From contig NC_091208.1 of the NCBI RefSeq assembly GCF_040958095.1, forward strand, positions 10,807,326 through 10,871,325: a stretch of DNA of 64,000 nt, in the 5' to 3' direction. This DNA comes from Procambarus clarkii. Taxonomy: Eukaryota > Arthropoda > Malacostraca > Decapoda > Cambaridae. The notes under the pieces were generated by a model. That model made no database searches, was not told the origin of the DNA, and saw only the letters and a list, made by a program, of their open reading frames with translations. Shown one piece after another: positions 23,549-62,829 of the stretch. The first letter of the stretch is position 1. Each line of letters begins with the position of its first letter. The position numbers were made by a program, and so were the translations under genes.

Positions 23549-23910
23549 CAGGTCCCTGGAATACGATCCCCTGCCGCGAAGAATCGTTTTTTGTTTCTGC
23601 CCGAAACGCTTTGCGTAATAGTGGCTTTAGGCATTGTATGTACTAGCTCTATCTATAAAGCCAACAAACTTTATAAAATCTCTTTATGTATGTACCTTTA
23701 CCTAAATAAATATTCTAATTCTAATTCTAAAAATAAAAAATATTCTAATTCTAATTCTTTTTTCATCCAAGTACACATTTTACTGTTGCGTTAAACAGAG
23801 GCTACAGTTAAGGAATTGCGCCCAGTAAATCCTCCCCGGCCAGGATACGAACCCATGACATAGCGCTCGCGGAACGCCAGGCGAGTGTCTTACCACTACA
23901 CCACGGAGAC
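23549..23910 (-). mobile_element. SINE-1 copy split by a LINE tail
   Basis: 23549-23592 and 23757-23910 are parts of one reversed SINE-1: body segment, then body plus tRNA head ending CCACGGAGAC. Between them (about 23600-23755) lies a plus-strand LINE tail (CTGCCCGAAACGC...ATGTATGTACC) ending in repeated ATTCTAATTCTA. The insertion point is the SINE's own T-run, so the LINE tail is the younger insertion. Confidence 0.75.
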
Positions 23911-23929
23911 TTAATTGTTAAAGTTTGTT

Positions 23930-28260: not shown

Positions 28261-28299
28261 CCCAAACCGACTCCTCCTAAGTCAGGTAAGCCTGTGATG

Positions 28300-29262: not shown

Positions 29263-29270
29263 CCATCCAG

Positions 29271-31038: not shown

Positions 31039-31317
31039 TTTTTTTTTTTTTGAGATATATACAAGACTTGTTACATTCTTGTACAGCCACTAGTACGCGT
31101 AGCGTTTCGGGCAAGTCATTAATCCTATGGTCCCTGGAATACGATCCCCTGCCGCGAAGAATCGTTTTTTCATCCAAGTACACATTTTACTGTTGCGTTA
31201 AACAGAGGCTACAGTTAAGGAATTGCGCCCAGTAAATCCTCCCCGGCCAGGATACGAACCCATGACATAGCGCTCGCGGAACGCCAGGCAAGTGTCTTAC
31301 CACTACACCACGGAGAC
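31039..31317 (-). mobile_element. SINE-1 inserted in copy A2 pol
   Basis: Full-length reversed SINE-1 with poly-T at 31039, the longer tail variant (TCATTAATCCTATGG before the body), and a tRNA head ending CCACGGAGAC. It splits the RT from RNase H. It is younger than A2. Confidence 0.88.
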
Positions 31318-31957
31318 TGCTTAAACCACCAAGAAGTAGCCTACCACCAAGAAGCAGCTCTTGCGCTTCCTTAGTCTTGCCTCCTACTACCGTAGGTTTG
31401 TGAAGAATTTTAGTACGGTAGCAACACCATTGATCACTTTAACCAGCCCCAAGCAACGGTGTCATTGGACCATTCAGCAAACCATTGCTTTTGAACATCT
31501 TAAATCTCTACTCTGTTCTAATCCCATTCTCGCCTCGCCAGATATCACGAAGCCTTTCATTCTCTATGTCGACGCCAGTGGTACCGGCATCGGGGGCGTC
31601 CTGATGCAACAACGACGCGAGGAGGTTCTACCTGTTAGCTACTACAGCTACAAGTTAAAACCACACCAGAAGAATTACAGCACTATCGAAAAGGAACTCC
31701 TCTCCATCGTCCTGAACTTACAGCACTTTGCATCTTACCTATAAGGTGCACGGTCTACCACCATCTACTCGGACCACAATCCCCTACGCTTCTTGCAGCA
31801 AGCCCAATTCAACAATCAACGGCTTCTACGATGGGGTTTATATCTCCAGAATTTCAACCTGGAGATCTTCTATATCAAGGGTTCTGACAACATCATAGCA
31901 GACGCCCTCTCCAGATTCTATGAGGTAGAAGCAGTTACACCTACCACTGTACCATAA
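31318..31957 (+). pseudogene. Family A RNase H, copy A2
   Basis: Connection (FVKNFSTVATPLITL) and RNase H with YVDASGTGIGG, STIEKELLSIV, and, past a CAA-to-TAA stop at 31742-31744, YSDHNPLRFL and IIADALSRFYEVE. It is followed by the polypurine tract and LTR. Confidence 0.82.
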
Positions 31958-31997
31958 GTCGTAACTTCACCCATTAGAGCAGGCTTCGGGGGAGAGT

Positions 31998-33178
31998 TGT
32001 GACGATAATCTCTTTCAAGAGAGATTGAGCCTGCTCTTCCCTACATAAAGTTACTTATATATATACAACAATAAGATGCTACCTTCAAGATACGTTTACC
32101 AGTAGCACAAAACGTTTTGACCAGGAGGCAAACGTACCCTAAACTCCCCCATACTCCACACTCCCTCCATGCCGGCTCGCCACTGTCATCAACCAGCAAA
32201 CTACCATTCCCAGCCTGCCTGCTTCTGATTGGTGACCCGCCGACTGCACACCTGCACCTCTGAACCTCAGCGCCCTCTACTTAGTCGATGTCTGGGCTTG
32301 AACCAGTCATTGAAGTTAGAATATTTTGTGCTCTCAAGTTGTGAATAACTAACTGATATACGTTTTGTCTATCAGGTGGATGTTTCTCAGCTAGCGCTTT
32401 ATTATCAGCACCTGCTTATTTCATTTTGTCTTTATATTATAGAGTAAAGTCATCCCTGTTCTTAATTTTTATGTTATATGAAATCAAATCAAATCAAATG
32501 TTTATTTAGGTAAGGTACATACATACAAGAGATTTTACAAAGAGTGATGGATTTATAGATAGGGCTAGTACATACAATGCCAAAAGCCACTATTACGCAA
32601 AGCGTTTCGGGCATGAAAAACTTAAATGACTAAAGCTTAATACTAATTGAGCATAAAGAGTAAAATGAAAACATGGAATGAAAACATAGCTGAAAAAGCA
32701 GCACAAATACAATTCTGTCGACAAACAGCGCTCTTTAAAAAAAAAAAACTGACATTGGTTGACAATAGAGGGGTAAGCTAGGTAGGTTACAGGGAATTTG
32801 TTAGGTAATGCTTCGTTTTTATCTTAAACTGGTTGAGAGAGGTACAGTCTTTAACATGGTTGGGAAGGTCATTCCACAATCTGGGTCCCTTCATTTGTAG
32901 AGCATTTCTGGTTTGATTAAGTCGTACTCTAGGAATATCAAAACTGTATTTATTTCTGGTGTGGTGCTCATGGGTTCTGTTACAACCTTCTTTTGGTTAT
33001 TATATTTGGTATATATTTTGACTTGTTTGTTTGCACTGTACATAGCCAAGGAATTGTCTTTGCTTTTAATTCGCTTTCAATTTAATTAAAGTTTCATTGT
33101 TCATACTATGTGTTTTGCGTGTCTTCCCTTACTTTACCACAGACAACAGCCAAGCAGTCGATCTTTTTTTTCTTTAAT
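31998..33178 (+). repeat. 3' LTR of copy A2, truncated and interrupted
   Basis: Starts TGTGACGATAATC after GGGGGAGAGT. It is interrupted at about 32477-32990 by a LINE, and homology to the A1 LTR stops at about 33178, short of the expected ACAGCCGAACACC end, where a hairpin begins. Confidence 0.8.
32477..32990 (-). mobile_element. 5'-truncated LINE inserted in the A2 LTR
   Basis: Minus-strand LINE end: last ORF2 residues (about 32810-32990; matches 39130-39330), 3' UTR and a (TTTGAT)n tail at about 32482-32505. About 510 bp. It resembles the LINE at 38762-44330 and is younger than copy A2. Confidence 0.8.
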
Positions 33179-38760: not shown

Positions 38761-40465
38761 TAAATAAATAAATAATAAAATAAATAAATAAATAAATGTT
38801 TATTTAGGTAAGGTACATACATAAAGAGATTTTACAAAGTTTGTTGGATTAATAGATAGAGCTAGTACATACAATGCCTAAAGCCACTATTACGCAAAGC
38901 GTTTCGGGCAGGAAAAACATTAATGACTAAAGCTTAATACTAATGGGTAAAAAGAATAAAATGTGTTGAGAACAAATAAAAATAGAGGTAAAAGAGGGGG
39001 GAACATGGCTGAAAAAGCAGCACAAATACAATTACAAATTATTACAGACAATTAAATTCAAACAGCGTTGTTTTGAAAAAAAAAACAAAAAACATACATG
39101 GGTTGACAACAGAGGGGTAAGGTAGGTTACAGGGAATTTATTAGGTAGTGCTTCGCTTTTATCTTAAACTGGTTGAGAGAGGTACTGTCTTTAACATGGT
39201 TGGGAAGATCATTCCACATTCTGGGTCCCTTTATTTGAAGAGCATTTCTAGTTTGATTAAGTCGTACTCTAGGAATATCAAAACTATTTATTTCTGGTGT
39301 GGTGCTCATGGGTTCTGTTACAACCTTCAATGAATCTTTTGAGATCAGGATTGGCATTACAGTTCAGCGTTTTATATATGTATAATACACATGAGAGAAT
39401 GTGCAGTGACTTAATATCTAACATACTCAGAGATTTGAGTAGGGGTACCGAGTGATGTCTGGGGCTAGAGTTGGATATTGTCCTAATAGCAGCTTTGTGT
39501 TGAGTAATTAGAGGACGTAAATGATTTTGGGTAGTAGAGCCCCAAGCACAAATACCATAGTTGAGATATGGATAGATGAGGGAGTAATAGAGAGTCACCA
39601 GGGCAGGGCGGGGTACATAATATCTGATCTTAGAAAGAAGGCCAACAGTTTTTGAAACTTTTTTTGATATATTTAGAATGTGTCCCTGGAAATTCAGCTT
39701 GTGGTCGATGAGAACGCCAAGGAATTTCCCATCTAATTTGTTACAAATTTGGGTATTGTTTATTTTGAGATTTATTTGATTGGAGGATTTATTGCCAAAC
39801 AGAATATAGAACGTTTTGTCAATGTTAAGGGTGAGTTTGTTGGCAGTTAGCCAAAGATGGACTTTCTCTAGCTCAGCATTTACTGTGGCATTTAGAGCAA
39901 GGGGGTCAGGACTGGAGTAAATGAAGGTTGTGTCGTCAGCAAATAGAATTGGTTTGAGGTGTTGGAAGGCATTTGGAAGGTCATTAATGTAGATGAGAAA
40001 GAGGAGAGGGCCAAGTATGCTGCTCTGAGGAACACCAATGTTGATGGGTAGGGTGGGAGAAATTGTATTATTCACAGAAACATACTGGAGCCTGTCAGTA
40101 AGATAAGATTTGAGGTATTGCAGGGAGTGTCCTCTGACTCCATAATGATGTAATTTAAGAAGAAGGTTTTGGTGGTTGACAGTGTCAAAAGCCTTACGCA
40201 GGTCAACAAATAACCCAACAGGGAACTCCTTATTATCAAGAGCTGCGTGAATCAAGTTAATCATACTAATAAGTGCATCGTTAGTGCTTTTTTTGGGTCT
40301 GAAGCCATATTGACAAGAGCTAAGTATATTGTGTTTGGCTAGAAAAGAGTAAAGCTGCTTGTAGATTAGTTTTTCGAATATTTTTGACAAGTTAGGCAGG
40401 ATTGATATAGGTCTGTAGTTGTTAACATCTGTGAGATCACCACATTTGTGAACAGGGGTTACTCA

Positions 40466-40704
40466 GTCTCCGTGGTGTAGTGGTAAGACACTCGCCTGGC
40501 GTTCCGCGAGCGCTATGTCATGGGTTCGTATCCTGGCCGGGGAGGATTTACTGGGCGCAATTCCTTAACTGTAGCCTCTGTTTAACGCAACAGTAAAATG
40601 TGTACTTGGATGAAAAAACGATTCTTCGCGGCAGGGGATCGTATTCCAGGGACCTGCCCGAAACGCTACGCGTACTAGTGGCTGTACATGAATGTAACTC
40701 TTGC
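40466..40704 (+). mobile_element. SINE-1 inserted in LINE RT linker
   Basis: Starts GTCTCCGTGGTG; A box TGGTGTAGTGG at 40473-40483, B box GGTTCGTATCC at 40523-40533, body, then the LINE-like tail (GACCTGCCCGAAACGC, CGCGTACTAGTGGCTGTA). It lacks a long A-tail and ends ACTCTTGC; the flanking host LINE sequence resumes with TTTTTTTAGAATG. ACTC occurs at both edges and may be part of the target duplication. Confidence 0.88.
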
Positions 40705-42067
40705 TTTTTTTAGAATGTCTGGAAAGGTTTGGAGTTCAAGTGACTTGTTGAAGAGCAATGCAATAGCAGGGGCTAAAGATCTGGAGGCTTTTTTGTAAAT
40801 TAAAGTTGGTATCTCCTCGAGGGCACTAGACTTGGTTTTAAGGGAAAGGATTATCTCATTGACATCAGTGGAATTAATAGGCTTTAGGTACAGAGACTGT
40901 GGATAGTTACCTGTAAGATAGTCCTTAACATCAGTACTGGAAGATGGAATATCATTTGCAAGGGATGACCCAATGGAAGAGAAGAACCTATTGAACTCAA
41001 TAGCAGAATCAGAGGCTGAAAGCTGACCAACGTTATTGGACAGGAGTGTTGGTTTGTTATTTAAAATCTTCTTTGATCCCAATATTTGTGAAATTGTGCT
41101 CCATGTTTTTTTAATGTTGCTCTTTATTTGGGTAAATTTATCTTCATAGTATTTAGTTTTGGCTCGTCTAATTATTTTAGATAGCAATAACGAGTAATTC
41201 TTTGAGAATTCTTTGGAGACGGTTCCTAACCTATACTTCTTCTCAAGGTCGTGTTTTTTGTTAATGGATTTAAGTATTCCCTTTGTAAGCCAAGGATTGT
41301 TAAGCCTTTTGTTTGTGACTTGTTTTGTAAGCATAGGACTGTGGGTGTTATAAAGGCTAAGAGTTGTTTGTAGAAAAGATTGCACTGCTAGGTTGATGTC
41401 CCCTATGTTACCTAACTCGGACTCCCAGTTGACATTATCAGCAGCAGTTATAAAATTGTTTATAGCAGTTTCATTGTGCAGCCTAAAGCTTAACTCCCTT
41501 GACTCAAGAGGTGGTTTGATAATGTTAGTTAAGAGAAATGTGGGGTAATGGTCTGTAGTGCTATCGGCGATTATACCTGAAGTAAGCGGAGAGGTTATGT
41601 TGGTCCAGATGTGATCTAGAGTCGTAGCAGTACTATCAGTGATTCTAGTTGGTCTTGTGATTAAGGGTATGAGGAAGCAGGAATTCATACAGTTGAGGAA
41701 GCTAACAGCAGTAGGGTGTTCAGGCTCGCAGAGGTCAATATTAAAGTCCCCTGCGATAATTAGATGGTTTTTGTTCAGTCTGTTACCTAGTATTAGATTT
41801 CTAAGGTTTGAATTGAATTCAGACACATCAGTGTTAGGAATTCTATAGACTGCACCCACAGACAGGACAGACTCGGCACCCTTGACTCTGAAACTGGCGA
41901 AGATATACTCTCCACAGCAGTCTCTAGTTCTAATTATTTTTAAGCATGTTAGTTCTTGGTGGTAGTAAAGAGCAGTACCACCACCTCTCTGCATTTGACG
42001 ACAGTTGTGAATTGCCGAGTAGTTAGGCATGTTAAAGAGTTGAGTAGTATCCTCTTTCAACTTTGCA

Positions 42068-42359
42068 GTCTCCGTGGTGTAGTGGTAAGACACTCGCCTG
42101 GCGTTCCACGAGCGCTATGTCATGGGTTCGTATCCTGACCGGGGAGGATTTACTGGGCGCAATTCCTTAACTGTAGCCTCTGTTTAACGCAACAGTAAAA
42201 TGTGTACTTGGATGAAAAAACGATTCTTCGCGGCAGGGAATCATATATTCCAGGGACCATAGGATTAAGGACTTGCCCGAAACGCTACGCGTACTAGTGG
42301 CTGTACAAGAATGTAACAACTCTTGTATATATCTAAAAAAAAAAAAAAAAAAAAAAAAA
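42068..42359 (+). mobile_element. SINE-1 inserted in LINE endonuclease, intact A-tail
   Basis: Full-length SINE-1 with tRNA-like head, body, the longer tail variant (CATAGGATTAAGGAC before TTGCCCGAAACGC), CTTGTATATATCT and an A-run of about 25 nt. It interrupts the endonuclease just after the ILTET motif. The long A-tail suggests a recent insertion. Confidence 0.88.
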
Positions 42360-45709: not shown

Positions 45710-46165
45710 GGTAATGGTGACCAGTCTGGTAGTGATGGTGACCAGTCTGGTAGTGATGGTGACCAGTCTGGTAGTAATGGTGACCAATCTGGTAGTGATG
45801 GTGACCAGTCTGGTAGCGATGGTGACCAGTCTGGTAGTGATGGTGACCAGTCTGGTAGCGATGGTGACCAGTCTGGTAGTGATGGTGACCAGTCTGGTAG
45901 CGATGGTGACCAGTCTGGTAGCGATGGTGACCAGTCTGGTAGCGATGGTGACCAGTCTGGTAGCGATGGTGACCAGTCTGGTAGCGATGGTGACCAGTCT
46001 GGTAGCGATGGTGACCAGTCTGGTAGCGATGGTGACCAGTCTGGTAGTGATGGTGACTAGTCTGGTAGTGATGGTGACCAGTCTGGTAGTGATGGTGACC
46101 AGTCTGGTAGCGATGGCGACCAGTCTGGTAGCGATGGTGACCAGTCTGGTAGTGATGGTCTGATG
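45710..46165 (+). repeat. 21-bp VNTR, about 21 units
   Basis: Tandem GATGGTGACCAGTCTGGTAG(C/T) units. Each is seven codons, so frames stay open on both strands (DGDQSGS on plus; HYQTGHH on minus). No start context or flanking coding sequence supports a gene. Confidence 0.92.
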
Positions 46166-46254: not shown

Positions 46255-46393
46255 GCTCGAAACACTTTGCGTAATAGTGGCTTCAGGCATTGTATGTACT
46301 AGCTTTATCTATAAATCCATCAACGTTTTGTATCTCACCTTGTATGTATGTACTTTACCTGAATATATATTTGATTTGATCTGATTTGATTTG
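46255..46393 (+). mobile_element. LINE 3'-tail fragment
   Basis: GCTCGAAACACTTTGCGTAA, GTATGTACTTTACCTG and a (TGATT)n-like end. It directly abuts the truncated left edge of element B4. Confidence 0.75.
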
Positions 46394-46499
46394 ATATTGG
46401 GTAATGAGTTAGCAAGAGATAAGGTAGGGGACTCCAGACTGCCTATTATGTTGCCTACCTTAGGTTTCCCTGGATCTATCAGCCGCAGAGGATAATGTT

Positions 46500-47663
46500 G
46501 TGTACCTTGCGTGTGCGATGACCAGGTCTATGGAACTTAAATGTAAGGGCAGCCCTGCGGTTGCCAATTTGGTAAATCCCAAGGACACAAGGAACTTTCC
46601 GAGTGGTGAAAGCCAAGTGGACCTTGCAGACACGTTCATGGCCCGAATCGATGACGAGGCAGAGGACACTGTGGAGAGCCTACCATCACCTACTACTAGG
46701 AGTAGTGAGGAGGTGGAGGGGGAACCCTAGCGAGTCTCGGTCAATGGCATTGGACCCAGGCATGGATGCCTCCTTGAGTAAACTGCAGAAGGCTGATCCC
46801 AGTCTTGCAGAATGTCATGATGTAGCTCTCTCTAAGGAGGAGATTGTAGATGCAGCAACTGGGTACTATTACGAGGATCAGATTTTGATGAGAAAATGGA
46901 GACCACAGAGTTCTCCCTTGTCAAATGAGTGGGAGATTGTCCACCAGGTTATCTTGCCGACCTGCTATAGAGAGAAATTTTTCTCAGCTGCTCATGATGA
47001 CCCTATGGGGGACATCAAGGCATTAATATTATGTATCATAAGATCTTTAAATATTTCTACTGGCCCAAGCTGAAAAGCGATGTGGCAAAATTTTGTAACT
47101 CTTGTATCGCTTGTCAGCTTGGGAAACCAAACCAGACACCACCTAAAGCTCCTCTAAGGCCTATTGTCGTGCCGGAGGAACCATTTTCTCATGTGGTAAT
47201 GGACTGTGTTGGTCCATTACCTAGAACCAAGTCTAGTAACATTTACCTGTTAACAATGATGTGTATCACCACCCATTACCCTGAGGCTTTTGCTGTAAGA
47301 AACCTCCGAGCAAAGACTGTTGTTGCTCGTATGTTGCATTTTTTTTCAACTTTTGGGCTGCCTCGGGTCGTGCAAACTGACAATGGTACTAATTTTAAGT
47401 CTGATATTTTTGAGCAATTCTGTAAGGACCATGGAATAACTGATAAGGTTTCCAGTCCATACCATCCACAGAGTCAAGGAGTAATTAAGCGGTTCCATCA
47501 GACGTTAAAGCAGCTGCTGAAGACATCGTGTGAGAATTCACATAGATTTTGGGATGAGAACTTGCCATATGTTTTGTTTGCTGCTCGAGAGGGGTTACAA
47601 AGTTCACTGGGTTGTTCTCCTTTTGAGTTATTCTTAAGCCATAAGGTCCGTGGACCCTTATAA
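46500..47663 (+). pseudogene. B4 protease linker and integrase
   Basis: The protease-integrase linker (MTRSMELKCKGSP) is followed in shifted frames by the zinc-binding region (FCNSCIACQLGKPNQTPP) and core: Asp in VMDCVGPLPRTK, Asp in QTDNGTNFKSD. The catalytic Glu is replaced by Lys (GVIKRFHQTL; B3 has GVIERFH). A stop in the GPL sequence at 47661-47663 ends the frame. Integrase would be inactive. Confidence 0.82.
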
Positions 47664-49523
47664 ATGTTACAGGAGAATCTGTTAGGTAATGTAACGTTGA
47701 CCGAAGGTTCGGCTTTCTTTGCACAACACCCCCAGAGACTCAGTGACTGTAAGGCGGCTGCATTAAAATTTCTTGGGAAGGCGCAAGACAGTATGAACGA
47801 ACAACACGATACTAAGGCTAATTTGATGGTATTTCAGCCTGGTGACCCTGTCCTGGTATAAAAACCTTTACTGGTGAACAATATATCTCACAAATACGAA
47901 GACCCCTATATTGTGACAGAAAAGGTTGGGGACCTCACGTACAAAGTAAGGCACTCTGACAAGCGTAACCAGGTGATCCTGGTACACTTGAACCATCTGA
48001 AGAAGTTCCAGGGCCCCAAGCCTGTCGCTCTTACCAATGTTTCCTTTTCCAATGAGGGAGGGGATAATTGTTCTGGGGACCCAACTAGTCTCATTCTCAA
48101 TAATTCTAGTTCTGTGAATGCTGTGGAGGAGAGACTGTCCCATTTACAGATGGCCCAACGTGAAGAGGTGGAGTCGCTGCTTGACGAATTCTCCAGTCTG
48201 TTCAGGGAGCTCCCGACCCAGACTGATGCCATTTACCATGTTGACGGACTACACCCCCATTCAGCTTCAACCCTATCAGATGAGTCCAGAAAAGAAGGTG
48301 ATCGTGTGGAAAGAAGTCGACTTCCTGCTCCAGCACGGCCTCATCCGGCCGAGCCAGGGCTCTTGGTGCTCGCCCTGCCTTTTGGTCCCCAAACCAGACG
48401 GCTCCTGGTGATTATGCACCGACTATCGGCAGCTCAACAAGGTGACCATTGTGGATGCCTATCCGCTGCCCCTCCTAGAAGACTGCATCGACGAGATCGG
48501 GAATGCCACTTACGTATCGAAATTCGATCTCTCGAGGGGATACTATCAGATCCCGTTCACCGAACGTACCAAGCAACTAACCGTGTTCATAACAAACGAT
48601 GGTGTTATGAACAAGTATCAAGTGCTTCAATTATCAAGTACTACCATTCGGATTGCGTAATGCCCCTGCAACGTTCCAGAGGCCAATGAACTCTCTGCTC
48701 GCAAATGTACCAAATTGTCGGGCATATTTAGATGACATTGTGCTTTTTTATAGAAATTGGGCTGACTACATAACTAGGTTACGTCAGTTGTTCACAGTTT
48801 TGAAAAGTGCAAATCTAACGTTAAATGCAAAAAAGTATCATTTTGGCCAAGACATAGTGACATACCTCAGTTATGAAGTGGGCCAAAGAAAAGTGCTACC
48901 TTGGCAAGATAAAATCAATGCCATACTGGAGTATCCAGTACTCCGGTCTAAAAAGGAAGTTCAACGGTTTATTGGTATGCGTGTGTACTACCGCAGCTTA
49001 TGTCAGAATTTTTCCAGTGTCGCCACTCCTCTCACCAACATGTTGTAAAAGGCTGTTAAATTTAAGTGATCAACAGACTGTGCAGAGAGGCTTTTAAAAA
49101 CTTGAAACTGATCTTAGCTTCCTCCCCAGTGCTCACTAGTCCAAGGTTCGAAAGACCATTTAAAATTCACATTGACGCATTTGACTCAGGTGCTGGTGCA
49201 GTGTTGTTGCAAACTGGGGATGATCTAGTGGACCATCCAGTGTACTATTACTCTGTGAAATTTGAAAAGGTGCAACGCAATTGTTCAGTGGTAGAAAAAA
49301 AACGTTGGCGCTAGTGTTAGCCTGTAAAAAGTTTGAAGTGTATCTAACAGCAAATATAGTGGAAGTGTACACGGACCATAACCCACTAGTGTTTATAACC
49401 CAGATGAAAGAGAAAAATAAATGCATACTCAGGTGGGCGTTGTACCTACAGGACTTCAACCTTTCCATCATCCACTTACCGTCAGCTAAAAGTGATAACC
49501 AAGGCGCTGTCCCGGTTACCTGA
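47664..49523 (+). pseudogene. B4 integrase C-terminus, RT and RNase H, broken
   Basis: GPY/F-type module (HKYEDPYIVTEKVGDL), then RT pieces in changing frames: VDFLLQHGLIRPSQGSWCSP, DAYPLPLLEDCIDEIG, YVSKFDLSRGYYQIPF, and CRAYLDDIVLFYRNW at about 48715-48760. RNase H pieces: FKIHIDAFDSGAGAVLLQ, then TDHNPLVFITQ. At least four frame changes and several stops. Confidence 0.82.
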
Positions 49524-49786
49524 GTAGCAAGCATCTGAGCCACAGGAAGCCATATGCCAATTGTCATGTTTTAGTTATTTTTTTTAGGTTCTCCTGTGAC
49601 ATTAAATATTCCATGTCAAATTTATTTACTTCCTTTTTTTTGTATGTGCTTTTTCTTTCAGAGAATTCCTTTTTGTGTGCTTTTTCTTTTATTGCTTCGG
49701 TTTCTTTTTTTATCTCTGTATGCTCTTACAAAAAATATTACTATTATTCTAGTAGCCACACTTTTTTTCTCTGAAGGGTAGACAGG

Positions 49787-50759
49787 TGTTATGACCCTGG
49801 ATTCTTAATTGGAAACCAGAGGTCAATTTGAGTTTTAAATAATTGTAGACATTAATTCATAAGATTGGATCATGTGAGAAGGATGTTTAATTAACAATAA
49901 CATTTACATTCATGGCTTCTTAAAACCTGGGTAGGAATTTGATCCCATCTTCCTTGCCAGACGTAAGATGAATCTTGTTACTCACAGATTATTCAGACTC
50001 TTGGCTTGTTGATTATTAAATATAACATTGAACTAGTTATCAGTGATTCTTAGAATGATTAAAGTAACTAGTAATGAATGTCTGAGTAAACTTGGGATGA
50101 TTGCTGCTATACGATCAGTTGAGTATCCATCCGACAGGAATCAGGGAAGGCGTAGCAGAGCTCTCCTTCCTTGTCTGGTCTGGCTGCGGTGGTGTCAACA
50201 CCTTCTCTGTGGGTGCTGTTCTCCTCCTTCTCCCTTCCTTTACCTTATTCTGGGTTATTATATAAGATAAGTACCTGACCGTGTTACTGGTTAGGTGTGT
50301 ATTTAGTTCTTGTGTAACCTAAGATAGTGTTTTGGTATCTCTAAGTGTACTCTAGGGGACCAGTGAACCCACGTGTGCTTAATTCTTTGATACCTATGAT
50401 ACAAGTGCCTTTCAGGAAAGTAGTCTTTACCCTAGTGGCAATTGTAAACCTTGCATCCTGTTTTTGTGGACCAAGGTACTTAACGTAAGGTAGAGTGGTA
50501 AAATGATTTATTGTATTAATGTATATAGGGGGTTGTTAGAGGGTTTAATAAATAAGGCTAAACTAAGAGTATCTTTCATCCTGTTTAGAGTAGAGTAAGT
50601 GACTACTTTAGACAGCAGACGTTTAGTCTAGCCAAACAAATATTCATTGCTGGGAACCTTCTTCCCCGGGGGCCGGGGCCTACCGATTCCCACTATTTTA
50701 AGAACTCCTGTGATTTTCACTATTGAACCTTTCAGTACAACCACATGCCCCCCATAACA
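49787..50759 (+). repeat. 3' LTR of copy B4
   Basis: Starts TGTTATGACCCTGG and ends CCCATAACA, about 973 bp. It aligns along its length with the 992-bp B3 LTRs but is much more diverged. Preceded by a decayed purine tract (GAAGGGTAGACAGG). Confidence 0.8.
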
Positions 50760-50929
50760 TAAGGGCTTTACTCCGTCTCACAAAAATGTAGCTGCTATAG
50801 TAGATGCCCCAGCCCCAACATCAGTTTGGGAAGTACCGTCTTTTGTTGGGATGGTTACATATTTTTGTAAGTTTGTGAAGAACTTTTCTAATAAAAATTA
50901 GCACCCTTTTATGAATTGTTGAAAAAAGG

Positions 50930-52147
50930 GCTAAATTTAAGTGGGCAGCAAGAAAGGAGAATGCCTTCAGGAATATTAAGCAAGAATTGATAAATTCTCC
51001 AGTGCTCACTAATTTTACTGGTAGACTCCCTTTAAAATTGGAGGCAGATGCTTCTCTAGTAGGAGTGAGTTGTGTATTATTACAGGAAGTAGATGGTCAG
51101 GATAAAATAGTATATTTTGCTAGCAAGAACTTATCTCCTGCAGAACAAAATTATTCTCAGTTAGATAAAGAAGCCTTAGCTTTGATATATGCTTAAAAAA
51201 AACTGAGGTATTTTCTGCTGGGAAGGAAATTTCTTGCTAGAACAGATCATAAACCCCTACTAGGATTGTTTGGCAGAGGTAAACAAATTCCAGTTAATGC
51301 CAATGCTAGAATTCAAAGATGGGCATTACTACTCTCGCAGTTTAAGTATGATTTAGAGTTTAAGCCAAGCAAGGATGTAGTAGCTGATGCATTAAGTAGA
51401 TTGCCTGTGACAGAAGAATTGAATTCCAGGATTCCAGTGGAGTATGTTAACCTGGTGGAATATATGTCTTTTGAGGATATTTCATTCCAGACTATTAGGA
51501 AAGCTACTGGTAGAGATCCCAAATTAAATCTGTTGTTGAAATATGTGAGATCCTTGAAAGAAGGGTTAAAGCGGTTTACGGAAGGTACTATTAATACAAG
51601 GCTTTGTAGATTTTTATATAATCAAAGGAAAACTGTTCATTCTACTACTGGTAAATCTCCTTCCGAATTATTGTTTAATAGGCACTTTAAAGTGCACATG
51701 GAAGCAGTAAAGACAGATCCCGATAAAGAGAAATCGGTAACTAGCTTGGCCAGTCAGTTGGCTCAGGGAGAGGAATTGTTGTTTATCGAGGGGGATGCAG
51801 TATATGCAAGGAATTTTGGAGTTAGGAAGCCCTGGGTGGAAGGAAAAATTAGGAATTTTGAAGGAATTTCACTGTGCAAGTGCAGAGTATTGGGAACAGT
51901 AGTTGGAAAATGCATACAAATCAACTCATTGCCAAGGTTCACAGGAAATTTTGAAGACCCTTCGGGTGGGGGTGGGACAACTAGTGATACCAATCCAAAA
52001 AATGAAGGGATAGCAGCACCTACAGGAGACCGGGAGGCAGAGCAAGGGGCAACAGAGGGTAATGGAGATACAGTTAACCCTATGGACTCTACAGGGAGTA
52101 ATTCAGAAGAATGTTTCCCAGAAGTAACAGGTAGGGACACCAGTTGA
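50930..52147 (+). pseudogene. D: RNase H joined to integrase C-terminus
   Basis: RNase H (50987-51410) contains a stop at 51194-51196, then continues (ARIQRWALLLSQFKYDLEFK, VVADALSRLP). From about 51540 the frame passes directly into the part of integrase that follows the core (YNQRKTVHSTTGKSPSELLF) and on to a hydrophilic C-terminal tail. The integrase zinc finger and D,D,E core are missing, yet the 294-codon frame (51266-52147) stays open. Confidence 0.78.
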
Positions 52148-52361: not shown

Positions 52362-53790
52362 CTGGGGTTTGTCACAGATGATCAAGTTGGTGGAATCTTG
52401 CTGGTTGGCCAAGTCGTTGCCCAAAAGTTGAATTACTGGCATGGGAAAAGGTTTTCCCTGAATGGCGACTTTGACTTCTTCACTAATGAATGGACATTCC
52501 AGGTAGACTGTGGCAAGTGGGTAAGGTATGGTTGCAGTGAGGTCGGTGATCAGGACGGTTTCTCCAGTATTGGTGACTTGAAGAGCAGCGGCTTTTAGTA
52601 GAATACTCTGTAGGACAGCTCTGTCCCTCAAGATACGTATTGGGCCAGTTCCATCAGTATCTCTACCGTTGGCAGAAACAGTTCCTGGATACATATGTCT
52701 ATCAAATAAAGCAAGATCAGTAACTGGAAAATTTGCATGGAACACAGGCTTAGTAGGCTTAGGAGGTTAAGGTTAAGGCTTAGGCGAGTCAAATTTCGTT
52801 GCTCTGCAACGGGGATTTCGACATTGGTCAATAAGAAGGTGTCTATAAGTTTTGCAGTACCTGCAGTAAAGTGCATAGTTAATATCTTTATGACTTACTT
52901 TAGATGGAGCATTACTGGACCAAGATGGTTTACTGGAATATGAATCAAAAGATTTATGGATTAGGCTGTATCAGCTAAATGTGCACATTTACTGAGATTC
53001 TTCTCTACTTTATCTGCAAGATAGAGGCGCACTGGGTTAGGTATATGTCGCATGAATTCTTCCATTAATATTAGATTAATAAGTTCACTAAAGGTAGTAA
53101 TCTGGGCGGATTCTAGCCAATACATGAAATACCTGGCTTTATTCTGCATATACTTTCAGTGAATAGGAGATATGCATCATGGACTGCTTGCTTTAGTACC
53201 TCGTAGTCAGTTCTGGTGGCAAGAGTACTGATGGGTCAAGGCAGCTCTTCCTATAAGGTGAGCGCTGAGAAGTACTGACCATTGGTTCCAAGGCCAGAGT
53301 AACTGAGTTGCCAAAGCCTCAAAAGACACAAAAAATTAATCTACCTCTGTCTCTACGAAAAGCGGCATCATTTTGATACACTGTTTGGGGGTTAAAACAT
53401 ACTGGTAAGTTGGCTTCTGCTTCCTGGTGCTGAGAGGTGAGGGTAGTTTAAAGTTTCAACTCCTGATGTCGGTAATTGAGCACGGTGTCTCCTTTCTCTC
53501 TTTTTAAGCGTAATGCGATTGCAGCTTCATTTTCTTCTTGTAGTCTCTTGGGTTGAAGCTCTTGAGCTAGGCATTGTACTCGTTCTAATTCTCAATGACG
53601 TTGTAGGTCAGCCTCTTGTTGTTGTCGTTGACATTCTAATTCAGTTTTTTGTTCGTAGAGCCGGAGCTGTTCTTGTTCACGTTCACAGGTTAATATAGCG
53701 TCTTATCTTCTCATTTCCCATTTTTGTTCGTCAGCAGCAGGGTCTAATTGGGCTAACTCGATCTTAAATTTCATGAGTGTGAGTGTACCA
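52362..53790 (-). pseudogene. Antisense family A gag-protease fragment A5
   Basis: On the minus strand from 53790: start of the coiled coil (MKFKIELAQLDPAA), capsid-like part (KARYFMYWLESAQITTFSEL, RHIPNPVRLYLADK at 53149-52961), knuckle region, and protease (LRDRAVLQSILLKAA, PVIQLLGNDLANQ, ending IICDKPQ at about 52365). Multiple frame changes. The protein is closest to copy A2 28300-28690. It is cut by the LTR of element D. Confidence 0.8.
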
Positions 53791-54800: not shown

Positions 54801-54953
54801 GTAAATTTACGCTTAAATAAATAAATTTTCGCTTAAATAAGCAGTGATGCACATAAATAGACAACCTGAGAACCTGAAATTGCACTATGGTATAATCCAA
54901 CAACAACTTGATAGCAAATTCCTCGAAGTTTTTTTTTTTTTTTTTTTACATGC

Positions 54954-55945
54954 TGTTACGACCCTGGGTTCTCCAGTGGAAACCAGAGGTCAAAATTGAG
55001 CTATTAAACTTCCTAGTAGTACAGTTCAGGGCATCTCGAATGTCAATTGTTTGTATCTTCCCTGCCAGACGTAAGACTATTATTGTTTCTCAAAGAGCAT
55101 TTAAAGACTGAGCTGGGGGTTGATTATTAAATAATAACATAGGCACCAACTTTGCTTACTAATACTTTCTAATCATTCATAAAGTAACAATACGTTGCAT
55201 AGGGGAAGATCTTTAATGTGCTTAGCTGCACGATCAATTAGGCTCCTTCCGGCACCACGACATGAGGGAGGCCAGGTGGTCGCGAGGAGCTCTCTCTTCT
55301 CTCTGGCTGGTGTCGTGCGGATAAGACCTACTCTGTGGCTGCACCCCTACTCTCCTCCCTTCTCCTCTTACTTATTTCCCTTACCTGAAGTTCCTGTATC
55401 CTTAAGCTAAGTACGGGGCATTAGTAAGTGTACCTACTCTGGTAGTAACTATTGGTGAGACCTGGGGTTAGTATTTGCCAGTGTTTTGTTTACCCTAAGT
55501 GTTGTGTTTTGTATTAGGGTACCACATGGTCTCACTACCCTAAGCTGCATCCAGCTTCAGTGCTTATCCAGTAGTACTTTACCCTAGCTTGTTATTAGTG
55601 TAAACCTTGTATCCTGTCTATGTGGACCAAGGCTTTTAACGTAAGATAGTGTGGTAAAGTTATTATTATTATTGTTATTGGTGTGAGTGTATATGGGGGG
55701 TTGTTAAGGGGTTAATAAATAAGTACATGAATTACAGAGTATCTCTTCTTCCAAGGTGGGAGCGCAGTGATCAACCCTTAGACTAAAATATATGGTCTTG
55801 TAGCAAGTTATTACTACTGTGGATAGTTTATTTTGGGGGCCGGGCCTTTTAGCTCTCCCATATTTGATACTCTTGTCTTCTAACTACCTTTACCCCTTAA
55901 TAGTACCAGTACCCCATAGAAGCCCCACTCATATTAGTTGTAACA
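54954..55945 (+). repeat. 5' LTR of B3
   Basis: TGTTACGACCC to TTGTAACA, 992 bp. Differences from the 3' LTR: TAGTAGT versus TAGTAGC near 55020, and CTAAAATAT versus CTAACATAT near 55787. It contains an ATTATTATTATTGTTATTG stretch. A candidate primer-binding site starts two bases after it (TGGTTGGCCAGTCC, 55948-55961); the matching tRNA was not identified. Confidence 0.93.
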
Positions 55946-56222
55946 AGTGGTTGGCCAGTCCGGGAGGAACATTATAAGTGTAAAAAATTAGATTCTTGAG
56001 TGCCAAAATTAAAATTTTTTGTTTTCCGCAGAACGGTTGTGTGCTAGCCTAGGGTCCAGCTCATCTAGCAAAGGACATTCTTGCACTGACTGGACACCCA
56101 GCTGGATCCCTTCACGATTAAGGTTAGTGTGGCCTTGTGTTAGGGGCCGTGCAAATTTTTTTTTTTTTTTCCAATTTTTATTTTTTAATTTTTTCTTTGG
56201 CTGGGAGCTAAAATTATTAGTG

Positions 56223-58597
56223 ATGTCTTCTGAAATGCAGAACCTGGCAAGGGAGCCTTCAGTGGTAGAGATAAAGAAACTTAAAAAGTCTAATTTAGTA
56301 TTGTTAGGCCAGGAATTTGGCCTAGAATTAAATGTCGCAGATAAAAAGTGGACTTTGGTGAATGAAATATTACAACATTGTATTGATGAACAACTATTGG
56401 CAAGTGATACACCTTTATGCCAGCCTAGCCAAGCAGAAAGTGCAACTCATAGGGAAAGTGAATTAGCTTTAGAGTTAGCAAAAATAAAATTAGAGGAGCA
56501 AAGACTCAAAACCGAGGAGGCTAAAATTAGAGCGAATGCCACTGGAACTCCACCTGCCGGGGATTCAAACCCCAGGCATTATGAGAAAAAGCATAATTTG
56601 CCTGAATTTTCCGAGTCTGACCCTGAAAGGTTTTTCAACCATTTTCAGAGAGTGGCCACGTCCATGAACTGGCCAAAGGAAGAGTGGGTGAAAATCCTAC
56701 AGGGAAGACTTAGGGGTAAAGCACAAGATATTTTTATAAACATGCCTGACGACGAGTGTTTCGAATATGATAAAGTCAGGGAATGTATTTTACGGGCATA
56801 TGAAATTACTCCTGAAGCTCACCGCCAAGTTTATCGTAACCTTAGGCCTACTCACAACCAACCGCTCACTGAATTTGTGAATGATCAAATTCGATTGTTT
56901 GATAGATGGATTTGCTCGGCGAAAGCCGAAACATACGAGGCTCTCAGGAACTTAATTTTAATGGAGCATTTCATAGATATTATGCCAGAGAATGTATCAA
57001 ATTACATTAGAAGAAGGGTAGAGGTAAATTCTAAAATAGGGGATTTGGCCAAGTTGGCAGAAAACTACCAATTGGCGGGCAAAAGGCCCAATAAAAATAA
57101 TTATACCCCACAGAGTAGCAAAACTTATACCCGCAGCCAGTCCAGACCAACTCATTCTAACCCTTTACCTAATGCACCTTCTGTTTCAGACATAACTAAC
57201 CCTGTTAAAGTGTCTAGCCCAACGACACCTAAAGGTGAACCGAAGGGTAATTCGGTTAGTAATGTCTCTTCTCCCCGACGTTTTTGTGGTCACTGTAATC
57301 GTCCAAACCACACTATTAGCCGTTGTTGGCAACTGCACCCTGAAAAAAGACCCAATGCTCTAGTTGTGACACAGGGTTTGAGGCTTTCAGAAGGGTTAGG
57401 GAGTAAGACCTCCAACCCACAGTGGTTGGACTTGCTTACCCCATTCTTATCGAAAGGGAGACTACTTTTGTCTGAGGGTTCTTCCTGGAAGGACGTGGTG
57501 ATCTTCCGAGACACCGGTGCCATCCAGACTTTAATTTTAGAGAGTGCGTTGCAAGGTGCCAACACTCTCGACACTGGAGAGGTGGTACTGGTCGAGGGTG
57601 TCACTAGTGATACTCGAGCAGTACCCCTCCATAAGGTTACCCTGGAATCTGATTTCCACAAGGGTGTTTGTACAGTCGGAGTCACTTCATACCTACCTTT
57701 CCCTAATGTTGATGTAATAGTTGGTAATGATTTAGCAGGGGATAAGGTAGGGGACTCCAGACTGCCTATTATGTTGCCTACCCCTAAGGTTTGCCTGGAT
57801 CCACCCGCCGCAGAGGATAATGTTGTGTACCCTGCGTGCGCGGTGACCAGGTCTATGGGACTTAAATGTAAGGGCAGCCCTGTGCTTGCCAAGGTGGTAA
57901 ATCCCGAGGTCACGAGGAGCTTTCCGAGTAGTGAAAACCAAGTGGACCTCGCGGACACATTCATGGCCCGACTCGATGACGTGGCCGAGGACATTGTGGA
58001 GAGCCTGCCACCGCCATCTACCGAGAGTAGTGGGGAGGTGGAGAACACTGTTGAGCCTCGGCCAATGGCATCTGACCAAGGCCTAGATGCCTCCTTGAGT
58101 GAGTTACAGAAAGCTGACCCCACTCTTGCAGATTGTCATGAGACAGCTGTCTCTATGGAGGAAATTGTAGACGCAGCAACTGGGTACTACTACAATGATC
58201 GGATTTTGATGAGAAAATGGAGACCACAGAGTGCTCCCTTGTCAAATGAGTGGGAGGTAGTCCACCAGGTTATGTTGCCGACCTGCTATAGAGAAAGAGT
58301 TTTGGCAGCTGCTCATGATGATCCTATGGGGGGACATCAAGGTATTAATATTACGTATCAAAAAATTTTAAAGTATTTTTTCTGGCCCAAGCTGAAAAGC
58401 GATGTGGCAAAATTTTGTAATGCGTGTGTTGTTTGTCAACTGGTTGGGAAACCAAACCAGACTCCACCTAAAGCTCCTCTAAAGCCTATTGTCGTGCCAG
58501 AGGAACCATTTTCTCATGTGGTAATGGACTGTGTTGGACCATTACCTAGAACTAAGTCTGGTAATATTTACCTAATCACGATGATGTGTATCACTAC
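56223..58597 (+). pseudogene. B3 gag-protease-integrase N-terminal polyprotein, cut by a solo LTR
   Basis: The start at 56223 (MSSEMQNLAREPS) is preferred; the frame is open upstream only through a T-rich stretch. An N-terminal helical/charged part is followed by capsid (about 56580-57050: FFNHFQRVATSMNWPKEEW, LRPTHNQPLTEFVNDQIRL), one CCHC knuckle (CGHCNRPNHTISRC, 57287-57328), retropepsin with FRDTGAIQTLILES (57505-57546) and VDVIVGNDLAGD, a linker, then the integrase zinc region (GHQGINITYQKIL, CNACVVCQ) and the first catalytic Asp (VMDCVGPLPRTK). Gag, PR and IN share one frame without a shift, until the inserted LTR at 58598. Confidence 0.88.
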
Positions 58598-59279
58598 TGT
58601 GACGGTAACGCGTTGGTGTTCGGCTGTTTAAGGCTAGGGGTATGGCCTCGTCACATAGTTATAAAAAAAAAATAGAAAAAACTGGAACTTCGTCTGTGGT
58701 AAGGTAAGGAGAAGACACACAAAACACAAGTAAACTTTAACAATGAAATTTTAATTACGTTAATTAAATCAAAACATGAATAAAATGCACAAACAAATTC
58801 TTATAATAAAATCAATCAAAATAATAAGAATACTTAAATGACACAATGAAAAGTTACGTTAAGACAAAATAACAAGAAGTGCAATATACAAGTAAATGGG
58901 AGGTGCTGGAATATTGGCTTAAGCTACCACTTCCCTCAGTACACGCTAGCGTCTAGCCGGGAGGAGTGGTAACAACGAGAGCACTGAACATTCTGAGGTA
59001 GGAGGTTGGGGCGACCCCAGACATCAAGTAGTATGGGGGGGGCGAGTGCAGGTACAGCCAGACCGGCGACCAATCAGCGGAGCCGGTAGCGATCAACATG
59101 TAGTTTGGTGGTTTGAGTCCGAACAGGTGGCTGGCTGCATACGTTTGCTCACCCAGGCAAGCCTTGCTGGTGTTGTTGTTGTTGTTGGACATGTCTTCCA
59201 TAGTCGTTTTATATAATTTCAACGACGTGTTTGTGGAGGGAAGAGCAGGCTCAATCTCTTGAAGGAGATTATTGTCACA
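58598..59279 (-). mobile_element. Solo LTR of family A inside B3 integrase
   Basis: 682 bp with TG...CA ends. On the minus strand it starts TGTGACAATAATC (compare TGTGACGATAATC at 2691) and ends ACGCGTTACCGTCACA. It is flanked by CTAC (58594-58597 and 59280-59283). It interrupts the integrase core of B3 between ITT and the following RYPEAF. It has the length of the A1 LTR (677 bp) and matches its end (ACAGCCGAACACCAACGC). No internal sequence is left, so it arose by LTR-LTR recombination or is an LTR-only insertion. Confidence 0.88.
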
Positions 59280-60386
59280 CTACTCGTTACCCAGAGGCTT
59301 TTGCTGTAAGGAACATCCGAGCAAAAACTGTTGTTGCTCGTATGTTGCAATTTTTTTTCCACTTTTGGACTGCCTCGGGTCGTGCAAACTGACAATGGTA
59401 CTAATTTTAAGTCTGATGTTTTCGAGCAATTTTGTAAGGAACATGGAATAACTCATAAGGTTTCCAGCCCATACCATCCACAGAGTCAGGGGGTAATTGA
59501 ACGTTTCCATCTAACTCTGAAGCAGATGTTGAAGACATCGTGCGAGAGTTCCCACACCTTCTGGGATGAGAATTTACCGTATGTTTTGTTTGCGGCTAGA
59601 GAGGGATTACAAAGTTCACTGGGCTGTTCTCCTTTTGAGTTAGTCTTTGGCCATAAAGTTCGTGGACCCTTGCAAATGTTACAGGAGAATCTGTTAGGGA
59701 ACGTAACGTTATCCGAAGGTTCGGCTTTCTTTGCGCAACACCACCAGAGACTCAAGGACTGCAAGGCGGCTGCATTAAAGTATCTTGGCAAGGCCCAAGA
59801 AAAGATGAAAGAACGTAACGATGCTAAATCTAAGTTACGGGTATTTCAGCCTGGCGACCCGGTCCTGGTATTAAAGCCTCGACTAGGGAACACTATGTCC
59901 CACAAGTACGAAGGCCCCTACATTGTGACAGAAAAGACTGGGGACCTCACGTACAAAGTGAGGCACTCTGACAAACGTAACCAGGTAATGCTCATACATG
60001 TAAATCGACTGAAGAAGTTCCAGGGCCCCAGGCCCATTGCACTAACCAATGTTTCCATTTCCAGTGAGAGAGGGAATGATTGTTCTGGGGACCCAACTAA
60101 TCTCATTTTCAATAATTCTAGTTCTGTGAATGCTGTGGAGGAGGGACTGTCCCATTTGCAGATGGCCCAACGTGAAGAGGTGCAGTCGTTGGTTGATGAA
60201 TTCTCCAGTCTGTTCGGGGAGGTCCCGACCCAGACTGATGCCATTTGCCATGATGTCGAGTTGACGGACTACACTCCCATTCGCCTTCAACCCTATCGGA
60301 TGAGTCCAGAAAAGAAGGCCATCGTACGGAAGGAGGTCGACTTCTTGCTCCAGCACGGCCTCATCCGGCCGAGCCAGGGCTCTTAG
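59280..60386 (+). pseudogene. B3 integrase core, C-terminal module and RT start
   Basis: After the solo LTR the core resumes with Asp in QTDNGTNFKSDVF and Glu in GVIERFHLTLKQ, then SSLGCSPFELVFGHKV and a GPY/F-type module (SHKYEGPYIVTEKTGDL). RT begins with YTPIRLQPYRMSPEKK and VDFLLQHGLIRPSQGS. A 1-nt insertion in the T-run at 59351-59358 shifts the frame relative to upstream pol; the main frame runs from 59331. It ends at TAG 60384-60386, where B4 has TGG (Trp). Confidence 0.87.
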
Positions 60387-61529
60387 TGCTCGCCCTGCCT
60401 TTTGGTCCCCAAACCAGACGGATCCTGGCGATTATGCACCAACTATCGGCAGCTCAACAAGGTGACCATTGTGGATGCCTATCCGCTGCCCCTCCTCGAG
60501 GACTGCATTGACGAGTTGGGAAATGCCAAGTACGTTTCGAAATTCGACCTCTCGAGGGGGTATTATCAAATTCCACTCACTGAACGTGCTAAACAGCTCA
60601 CCACGTTCGTGACACCCGAGGGTGTTTTTGAGTATCAAGTGTTACCGTTCGGCTTGCGTAATGCCCCTGCCACGTTCCAGAGACTCATGAACTCTCTACT
60701 CGCTAAGGTGCCAAATTGTCGGGCGTATTTAGATGATATCGTGCTGTTTGACAGTAATTGGGCTGACCACATAGCTAGGTTACGCCAGTTGTTTGCCATC
60801 TTGAAAAGGGCAAATCTTACCTTAAATGCTAAAAAGTGTCATTTTGGCCAAGGCACAGTGACGTACCTCAGTTATGAAGTGGGCCAAGGAAAAGTGTTAC
60901 CTTGGCAAGATAAAATCAGTGCCATTCTGGAGTATCCAGTACTAAAGTCTAAAAAGGACGTTCAAAGATTTATCGGTATGTGTGCGTACTATCGACGTTT
61001 TTGTCAGAACTTTTCCAGTGTTGCCACTCCTCTCACAGACTTGTTGCGGAAAGCCGTTAAATTTAAGTGGTCATCAGACTGTGCAGAGGCATTTAAAAAT
61101 TTGAAATTGATCTTAGCTTCCGCCCCAGTGCTTGCTAGTCCAAGGTTCGACCGACCGTTTAAAATTCATGTTGACGCGTCTGACTCGGGTGCTGGTGCAG
61201 TGTTGTTGCAAACTGGGGATGATCAGGTGGAACACCCAGTATATTATTACTCTGTGAAATTCGACAAGGCGCAACGCAATTATTCAGTGGTAGAAAAAGA
61301 GGCGTTGGCGCTAGTGTTAACATGTAAAAAGTTCGAAGTTTACCTCACAGGTAATATAGTGGAAGTGTACACGGACCATAACCCACTAGTTTTCCTGACT
61401 CAGATGAAGGGTAAGAATAAACGCATCCTCAGGGGGGCGTTGTACCTACAGGACTTCAATCTTTCCATTACCCACCTACCGGGCAGACTCAACGTGATGG
61501 CCGATGCTCTGTCCCGGTTGCCTGAATAA
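60387..61529 (+). CDS. B3 RT and RNase H
   Basis: Same frame as the preceding segment after the TAG. RT: VPKPDGSWRLCTNYRQLN, YVSKFDLSRGYYQIPL (motif A Asp intact), LPFGLRNAPATFQRLMN, CRAYLDDIVLFDSNW (catalytic YLDD), KCHFGQGTVTYLSYEV. RNase H: FKIHVDASDSGAGAVLLQ, VVEKEALALV, EVYTDHNPLVFLTQ, ending MADALSRLPE and TAA at 61527-61529. All catalytic residues are present. It is the last gene of the element; only a 300-bp untranslated region and the polypurine tract precede the LTR. Confidence 0.88.
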   Translation, partial: CSPCLLVPKPDGSWRLCTNYRQLNKVTIVDAYPLPLLEDCIDELGNAKYVSKFDLSRGYYQIPLTERAKQLTTFVTPEGVFEYQVLPFGLRNAPATFQRLMNSLLAKVPNCRAYLDDIVLFDSNWADHIARLRQLFAILKRANLTLNAKKCHFGQGTVTYLSYEVGQGKVLPWQDKISAILEYPVLKSKKDVQRFIGMCAYYRRFCQNFSSVATPLTDLLRKAVKFKWSSDCAEAFKNLKLILASAPVLASPRFDRPFKIHVDASDSGAGAVLLQTGDDQVEHPVYYYSVKFDKAQRNYSVVEKEALALVLTCKKFEVYLTGNIVEVYTDHNPLVFLTQMKGKNKRILRGALYLQDFNLSITHLPGRLNVMADALSRLPE

Positions 61530-61818
61530 CATTCATCTGAGCCACAGAAAGCCATTTACCAACTGTCATGCTTTAGTTATTTTTTTTTAGGTTCTCCTGT
61601 GACATTAAATATTCCGTGTCCAATTTCTTTACTTCCCTGTTCTTTTATTTTTTGTGTTTTTTTTTCTTTCAGAGAACTCCTTTGTATTTTTATTTTTTTT
61701 TTGCAGAGAAATTGTTTTTGATTGATTTTTTGTTTTGTCATATGTTTTTCTTTTTATTCTCTGTATACTCTTACAAAAAATATGACTACTATTCTAGTAG
61801 TCACATTTTTTTTTCTCT

Positions 61819-61832
61819 GAAGGGGGGAGGAG
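61819..61832 (+). other. Polypurine tract of B3
   Basis: GAAGGGGGGAGGAG ends directly at the 3' LTR start TGTTACG (61833). It primes plus-strand synthesis in LTR retrotransposons. Confidence 0.85.
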
Positions 61833-62824
61833 TGTTACGACCCTGGGTTCTCCAGTGGAAACCAGAGGTCAAAATTGAGCTATTAAACTTCCTAGTAGCA
61901 CAGTTCAGGGCATCTCGAATGTCAATTGTTTGTATCTTCCCTGCCAGACGTAAGACTATTATTGTTTCTCAAAGAGCATTTAAAGACTGAGCTGGGGGTT
62001 GATTATTAAATAATAACATAGGCACCAACTTTGCTTACTAATACTTTCTAATCATTCATAAAGTAACAATACGTTGCATAGGGGAAGATCTTTAATGTGC
62101 TTAGCTGCACGATCAATTAGGCTCCTTCCGGCACCACGACATGAGGGAGGCCAGGTGGTCGCGAGGAGCTCTCTCTTCTCTCTGGCTGGTGTCGTGCGGA
62201 TAAGACCTACTCTGTGGCTGCACCCCTACTCTCCTCCCTTCTCCTCTTACTTATTTCCCTTACCTGAAGTTCCTGTATCCTTAAGCTAAGTACGGGGCAT
62301 TAGTAAGTGTACCTACTCTGGTAGTAACTATTGGTGAGACCTGGGGTTAGTATTTGCCAGTGTTTTGTTTACCCTAAGTGTTGTGTTTTGTATTAGGGTA
62401 CCACATGGTCTCACTACCCTAAGCTGCATCCAGCTTCAGTGCTTATCCAGTAGTACTTTACCCTAGCTTGTTATTAGTGTAAACCTTGTATCCTGTCTAT
62501 GTGGACCAAGGCTTTTAACGTAAGATAGTGTGGTAAAGTTATTATTATTATTGTTATTGGTGTGAGTGTATATGGGGGGTTGTTAAGGGGTTAATAAATA
62601 AGTACATGAATTACAGAGTATCTCTTCTTCCAAGGTGGGAGCGCAGTGATCAACCCTTAGACTAACATATATGGTCTTGTAGCAAGTTATTACTACTGTG
62701 GATAGTTTATTTTGGGGGCCGGGCCTTTTAGCTCTCCCATATTTGATACTCTTGTCTTCTAACTACCTTTACCCCTTAATAGTACCAGTACCCCATAGAA
62801 GCCCCACTCATATTAGTTGTAACA
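61833..62824 (+). repeat. 3' LTR of B3
   Basis: 992 bp, identical to the 5' LTR apart from two single-base differences. Followed by the target duplication CATGC at 62825-62829. Confidence 0.93.
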
Positions 62825-62829
62825 CATGC

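Follow-up and report, generated by a model that had tools for sequence, protein, structure and literature searches.

The 64,000-nucleotide stretch of the Procambarus clarkii genome analysed here (the window; assembly GCF_040958095.1, contig NC_091208.1, positions 10,807,326 to 10,871,325 of the forward strand) contains an element, B3, that very probably belongs to a Gmr1-like, autonomous-type family of Ty3/gypsy long terminal repeat (LTR) retrotransposons and is a young copy with defective coding regions. Its integrase (INT) is encoded ahead of its reverse transcriptase (RT), an arrangement given as the distinguishing feature of the Gmr1 clade within Ty3/gypsy in the available portions of three papers (PMC8220671, PMC6238403, PMC2774666), so that the architecture of B3 is, by these descriptions, not new. 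Gypsy-type enzymes in combination with this order are a mark of the Gmr1 clade, and the SCAN-type capsid domain in the gag of B3 is a second, independent mark that agrees. Family B, to which B3 belongs, is one of at least four INT-first families (A, B, C, and D) in this genome. The Gmr1 clade of Ty3/gypsy (Metaviridae) is said to go back to Goodwin and Poulter (2002).

Structure of B3

The genome searches covered the 4.03-Gb assembly holding the window, and all genome counts rest on the best-scoring matches rather than on a random sample. The features of B3 are listed below with their window positions.

54949 to 54953, unstranded: left target-site duplication CATGC (5 bp)
54954 to 55945, forward: 5' LTR (992 bp, TGTTAC...GTAACA)
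55946 to 55969, forward: candidate primer-binding site AGTGGTTGGCCAGTCCGGGAGGAA, shared with 8 of 9 further B copies
56013 to 58628, forward: open frame with gag, protease, and the first part of INT; its final residues fall in the insert
56811 to 57080, forward: SCAN-type capsid domain in gag (PF02023, 1.9e-8, 34.4 bits, cut-off 27; ZNF174 SCAN)
57285 to 57326, forward: CCHC zinc knuckle (motif)
57510 to 57521, forward: protease DTGA motif (motif only, no Pfam protease match)
58278 to 58445, forward: INT H2C2 zinc-binding domain (PF17921, 5.7e-19)
58598 to 59279, unstranded: foreign LTR inserted in INT (682 bp, TGTGAC...GTCACA), read as a solo LTR
59310 to 60383, forward: second part of INT, with the D-35-E core and the p58_C C-terminal domain; starts before the frame change
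60384 to 60386, forward: in-frame stop at the INT/RT boundary
60387 to 61526, forward: RT (YLDD) and RNase H (Pfam, solved-structure matches, motif)
61821 to 61832, forward: purine-rich tract abutting the 3' LTR, candidate polypurine tract
61833 to 62824, forward: 3' LTR (992 bp, differing from the 5' LTR at 2 positions)
62825 to 62829, unstranded: right target-site duplication CATGC

The first-pass annotation of this DNA had described two 992-bp LTRs with two differences and a CATGC duplication, and this description holds: the LTRs mismatch at 2 of 992 positions, start with TG and end with CA, and have CATGC on both outer flanks. TG...CA termini and a short target duplication are both features by which LTR retrotransposons are recognised. 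Between the LTRs, Pfam domains occur in the order SCAN, Integrase_H2C2, rve, Integrase_p58_C, RVT_1, and two RNase H models (RT_RNaseH_2 and RT_RNaseH), and the pol motifs include the integrase D-35-E, LPFG, and YLDD. The order gag, protease, INT, RT, RNase H reported by the same annotation was thus recovered from Pfam domains and motifs, with a motif only for the protease. The first ATG of the gag reading lies near 56223.

The candidate primer-binding site begins with TGG 2 nt after the 5' LTR and is conserved in other copies. One of the nine copies (L041, G000:C2:6883000-6884800) has the variant AATGGGGGCCTGTCCGGGAGGAAC, which presumably resembles a tRNA-Pro site and possibly reflects another primer tRNA. 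No env was found in B3, where only 306 bp separate the end of RNase H (61526) from the 3' LTR (61833); this interval contains short frames of 63 aa, 85 aa, and 124 aa (the last running into the LTR), which were not scanned against the domain library.

Enzyme and capsid type

The RT, RNase H, and INT of B3 are of the Ty3/gypsy type, as judged from sequence matches to domain models and solved structures. For RT and RNase H, the best solved relatives are the Ty3 RT (4ol8, 2.9e-76) and the Ty3 Gag-Pol (7q5b, 8.4e-76), and among solved chains the piece with the first INT part has matches to Ty3 (4.4e-10) and to the foamy-virus integrase (3.6e-8). The gag of B3 has the SCAN domain of ZNF174 among its PDB matches (3.9e-4). 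A SCAN-type domain scores over the cut-off in family B and is also seen in family C, whereas in family A it remains below (0.0064, 16.7 bits vs. 27).

SCAN domains are frequent in the genome as a whole, with 20,862 first-look candidates and all 150 of those scored lying over the cut-off. The best match reaches 65.3 bits vs. 34.4 for B3, and the set may include host genes.

Coding damage in B3

B3 is a coding-defective copy, broken after a recent insertion. The foreign LTR in its INT was found as an extra block relative to B2, another B copy in the window, and is flanked by CTAC at 58594-58597 and 59280-59283. All 40 matches scored in the genome (among 2859 first-look candidates) cover its positions 1-682, and seven of the nine spacings below 9 kb between same-strand neighbours are 5.1-5.4 kb, the others being 6.3 and 7.2 kb. 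Such spacings are as expected of the LTRs of another element. The best explanation of the insert is a solo LTR, the remainder of a second element that had inserted into B3. Past this insert, INT continues in another frame up to a T-rich run near 59.35 kb, where a second frame change follows; the relatives L002, L004, and L006 have a single frame through the corresponding position. Together with the stop at 60384-60386, the foreign LTR and the frame change render B3 incapable of encoding a full Gag-Pol. The earlier description of B3 as a complete copy therefore stands for its layout, that is, the LTRs and the domain order, but not for its coding capacity.

The B family across the genome

Relatives of B3 are numerous and closely similar. 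All 108 scored RT-RNase H matches (the best-scoring of 32,307 first-look candidates, B3 included) are 98-100% identical, and the RT of 69 of them falls within an open frame at least 1500 aa long. By the length of the open frame around RT, the relatives are compatible with a single Gag-Pol as known from pufferfish Gmr1 elements (~1500-1640 aa), which B3 itself is not. INT precedes RT on the same strand at all 30 B loci fetched by RT (29 of 29 without B3) and at the six loci fetched by integrase; in L012 and L030, sequence inside INT or in front of it is rearranged.

A search with the B3 LTR yielded 41 places from 40 scored matches of 3166 candidates, including 12 same-strand pairs that lie 5.7-6.9 kb apart, one of which is the B3 pair. 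The ends of ten other copies were fetched, and one copy was left out as its LTRs match only partly (291-992 and 1-966). The nine readable copies all have a perfect 5-bp duplication, different in every case, and their LTRs differ within each copy at 0, 0, 1, 1, 1, 2, 2, 3, and 4 of ~980-990 bp (one pair with one gap). Compared to the B3 LTR, they show 21-41 differences per ~980 positions, suggesting that B3 belongs to a slightly apart subfamily. Neutral rates are a few times 1e-9 per site and generation, a general value rather than one for this host, at which the 2 differences in 992 positions would date the insertion of B3 to about some hundred thousand generations ago. An older, decayed copy with the same gene order is found upstream in the window:

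46386 to 49839, forward: B2, INT before RT, ~86% DNA identity to B3

Several arrangements of B sequences deviate from the single, two-LTR copy. At G000:C579:55115-62434 and G000:C143:344844-352170, same-strand pairs of B RT matches are spaced at 6180 and 6187 bp, about the length of one internal part plus one LTR, so that these tandem copies seem to share an LTR. Two B LTRs abut tail to tail in opposite orientation at G000:C107:2176407-2178365, and at G000:C49:23952579-23953718 a B RT is found within a 4647-aa open frame, ~3 times the usual length. Just upstream of B2, a direct-repeat array (45711-46159) includes a frame that encodes a GDQSGS-like repeat.

Other INT-first and RT-first families

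Two copies of family A, likewise with INT before RT, are present in the window:

70 to 2824, forward: A1, second family A copy, truncated at the edge of the window, with INT ahead of RT
27487 to 32138, forward: A2, family A copy with H2C2, rve, p58_C, RVT_1, and RNase H in this order, in separate open pieces

The DNA identity within families is ~86% for both A1/A2 and B2/B3. Between the families, B3 and A2 share 25% identity from gag to INT over 683 aligned positions, while the other INT pieces are 33-62% and the RT-RNase H pieces 46-59% identical, in line with the strong protein divergence noted at first pass. Family D (L008) has H2C2 and the integrase core followed by RT. Family C was recovered through SCAN loci, which were fetched with ~1.5 kb on each side: 13 of 30 contain a match to the B3 INT and none a match to the B3 RT, and the remaining 17 are uninformative on gene order. 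Downstream of two of these loci (L066 and L060), L089 and L090 both show INT and then RT. RT-first elements with the order RT-RNase H-INT (L001 and L091-L093) occur in the same genome.

The first-pass annotation had argued that the INT-first architecture is established and diversified in this genome rather than a one-off, that B3 is young, and that intact relatives probably exist. As far as sequences can tell, the genome searches support the view that the group is established and diversified and has recently been mobile: the order recurs at all other B loci found by RT or INT and in families A, C, and D, the LTRs of B3 and of its nine readable relatives are nearly identical, and the search with the B3 RT returned the long open frames described above.

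Origin of the gene order and alternative readings

Several points weigh against reading B3 as a Gmr1-like element. B3 is placed with Gmr1 by published feature descriptions and not by direct sequence comparison, the Pfam scan of B3 gave no protease match, leaving the DTGA motif as the mark of this domain, and the primer-binding site is a candidate. The pairs of the inserted LTR were judged by their spacing. In addition, the INT tree is the only one that gathers the INT-first sequences, at a support below the star level, and in the RT trees (12 and 7 sequences) they are not gathered and two changes are needed.

In the INT tree, 10 INT-first sequences stand on one side and 4 RT-first sequences on the other (support 91/95), and a single origin of the INT-first order in this genome is likely on the strength of the sequences compared. 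The contrary view, that the order arose repeatedly in the Gypsy elements of this genome, that families A and B have no common INT-first ancestor, and that 'Gmr1' is not one clade here, appears rather unlikely to us. It draws on the RT trees, in which the RT-first L001 is placed beside family A and the RT-first L091-L093 among the B, C, and D sequences. However, these trees contain long branches, L001 and L090 among them, and a one-clade test does not reject a single clade in either (p = 0.475 and 0.165). The RT of B3 is also closer to those of A2 (47% identity) and L008 (56%) than to those of L091-L093 (32-34%) and L001 (38% over 63 aa), yet it shares only 34% with L090 of family C. Finally, a SCAN-like gag is found in B and C and, at its score below the cut-off, in A.

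The group containing B3 could also be a separate INT-first lineage that resembles the Gmr1 clade but lies outside it. This is quite improbable. The trees contain no reference Gmr1 sequence, B3 being related to Gmr1 by described features, and families A to D are deeply split; still, the gene order, the capsid with its SCAN domain, the Gypsy-type enzymes, and the length of Gag-Pol are all as described for Gmr1 in the accessible parts of the literature. Membership of Ty1/copia, in which INT precedes RT by default, is scarcely credible: the domain order alone would fit, but Pfam assigns RVT_1, RT_RNaseH_2, RT_RNaseH, Integrase_H2C2, and Integrase_p58_C, a copia-type RT model is absent from the matches, and the best solved relatives are Ty3 proteins, so that the enzyme type rules copia out. 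We assign a similarly negligible probability to an assembly artefact or a one-off rearranged copy. B3 does bear a foreign insert and other lesions, but the other B loci fetched all have INT ahead of RT (29 of 29 found by RT and 6 of 6 found by INT), and 69 of the 108 RT matches lie in one long open frame.

Two further candidates were rejected. In Tf1-type self-priming, a stretch near the transcript start is complementary to the site after the LTR; for stretches starting in the first 12 positions, the LTR contains no perfect complement of at least 7 bases. The Troyka lineage has 3-bp duplications and CG...CG ends in the part of its description at hand (PMC12440569) and is ruled out by the 5-bp duplications and TG...CA ends of the B family.

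Neighbouring repeats and host genome

A short dispersed repeat of ~150-300 bp occurs in the window at 31039-31320, 12007-12270, 40464-40698, 42065-42348, and 23758-23911, with copies 91-100% alike. The copy at 31039-31320 sits between the RT and RNase H of A2 and is missing from A1. Upstream of B3, 50773-51598 contains the remnant of an RNase H from a further Gypsy-type element (41% identity to B3 over 167 aligned positions), and 52408-53368 on the reverse strand a gag-like remnant, part of which is ~74% identical to the A2 DNA at 28273-28634; one open piece of this remnant gave no Pfam match.

In the genome, the arthropod cuticle domain PF00379 (Chitin_bind_4) scored over the cut-off in 150 of 150 scored matches (778 first-look candidates), many of them in tandem arrays. 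Profile searches for MHC_I, C1-set, and mollusc haemocyanin gave no match, a result that does not establish their absence.

Proposed mechanism

A replication cycle for the B family can be proposed by analogy with established LTR-retrotransposon biology, with the domains, LTRs, duplications, open frames, and young copies described above as its basis. The LTR would drive transcription of the element, and a single Gag-Pol polyprotein would be produced and cut by the protease, with the SCAN-type capsid building the particle. A tRNA bound at the site following the 5' LTR would then prime the copying of the RNA by RT and RNase H, plus-strand synthesis would start from the purine tract, and the integrase, encoded ahead of RT, would insert the DNA with a 5-bp target duplication. 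After B3 had landed, its INT would have taken in another LTR element, now reduced to a lone LTR, and small coding lesions would have been added.

Significance

In our view it is about as likely as not that, in this arthropod genome, the INT-first Gypsy elements with a SCAN-type capsid make up a large group that is diversified, comprises at least four families, and has recently been expanding. If true, the capsid type behind the vertebrate SCAN domains would be old and widely distributed among elements of protostomes, with the INT-first order a stably inherited trait and not a deuterostome curiosity. In the available text of two papers (PMC3424704, PMC3406341), the Gag of a Gmr1-like element is regarded as the source of the SCAN domain of vertebrate transcription factors, and a SCAN-type capsid in arthropod Gmr1-like elements bears on this origin. 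The domain is not universal in the clade, being present in more than 50% of frog Gmr elements according to a partly available source (PMC4131045). The near-identical B copies also make insertion polymorphism and transcription directly testable.

Comparison with known systems

Like the Gmr1 clade, the B3 family has INT upstream of RT, Gypsy-type RT, RNase H, and INT, and a SCAN-type capsid, and many B relatives have a gag-pol frame of ~1.5-1.6 thousand aa. The pufferfish Gmr1-4 elements are described in the accessible part of PMC11117352 as having one Gag-Pol of 1506-1634 aa and LTRs of 337-518 bp, in contrast to the 992-bp LTRs of B3; pufferfish Gmr1 is called a very young invader there, and the B family is likewise young. 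B3 differs in having an arthropod host. Gmr1 has been recorded in several phyla in the portion seen of PMC8556966.

The genome also contains RT-first Ty3/gypsy elements: L001 and L091-L093 share the enzyme type of B3 but have the order RT-RNase H-INT, and their RT pieces are only 32-38% identical to that of B3. Conversely, Ty1/copia elements (Pseudoviridae) share the order protease-INT-RT-RNase H, whereas the enzymes of B3 are of the Ty3 type. Decapods carry Gmr1-related elements, including GyRex4 and GyRex5, known as partial RT/RNase H and INT sequences from the available part of PMC3587641. Compared by description, GyRex4 and GyRex5 are partial, whereas B3 displays the whole structure with LTRs, duplications, and capsid type, and its family is young and high in copy number. 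Within the limits of these partly available sources, this suggests that what is new here is an arthropod INT-first family seen in its whole structure, with a capsid of the SCAN type and young copies in abundance.

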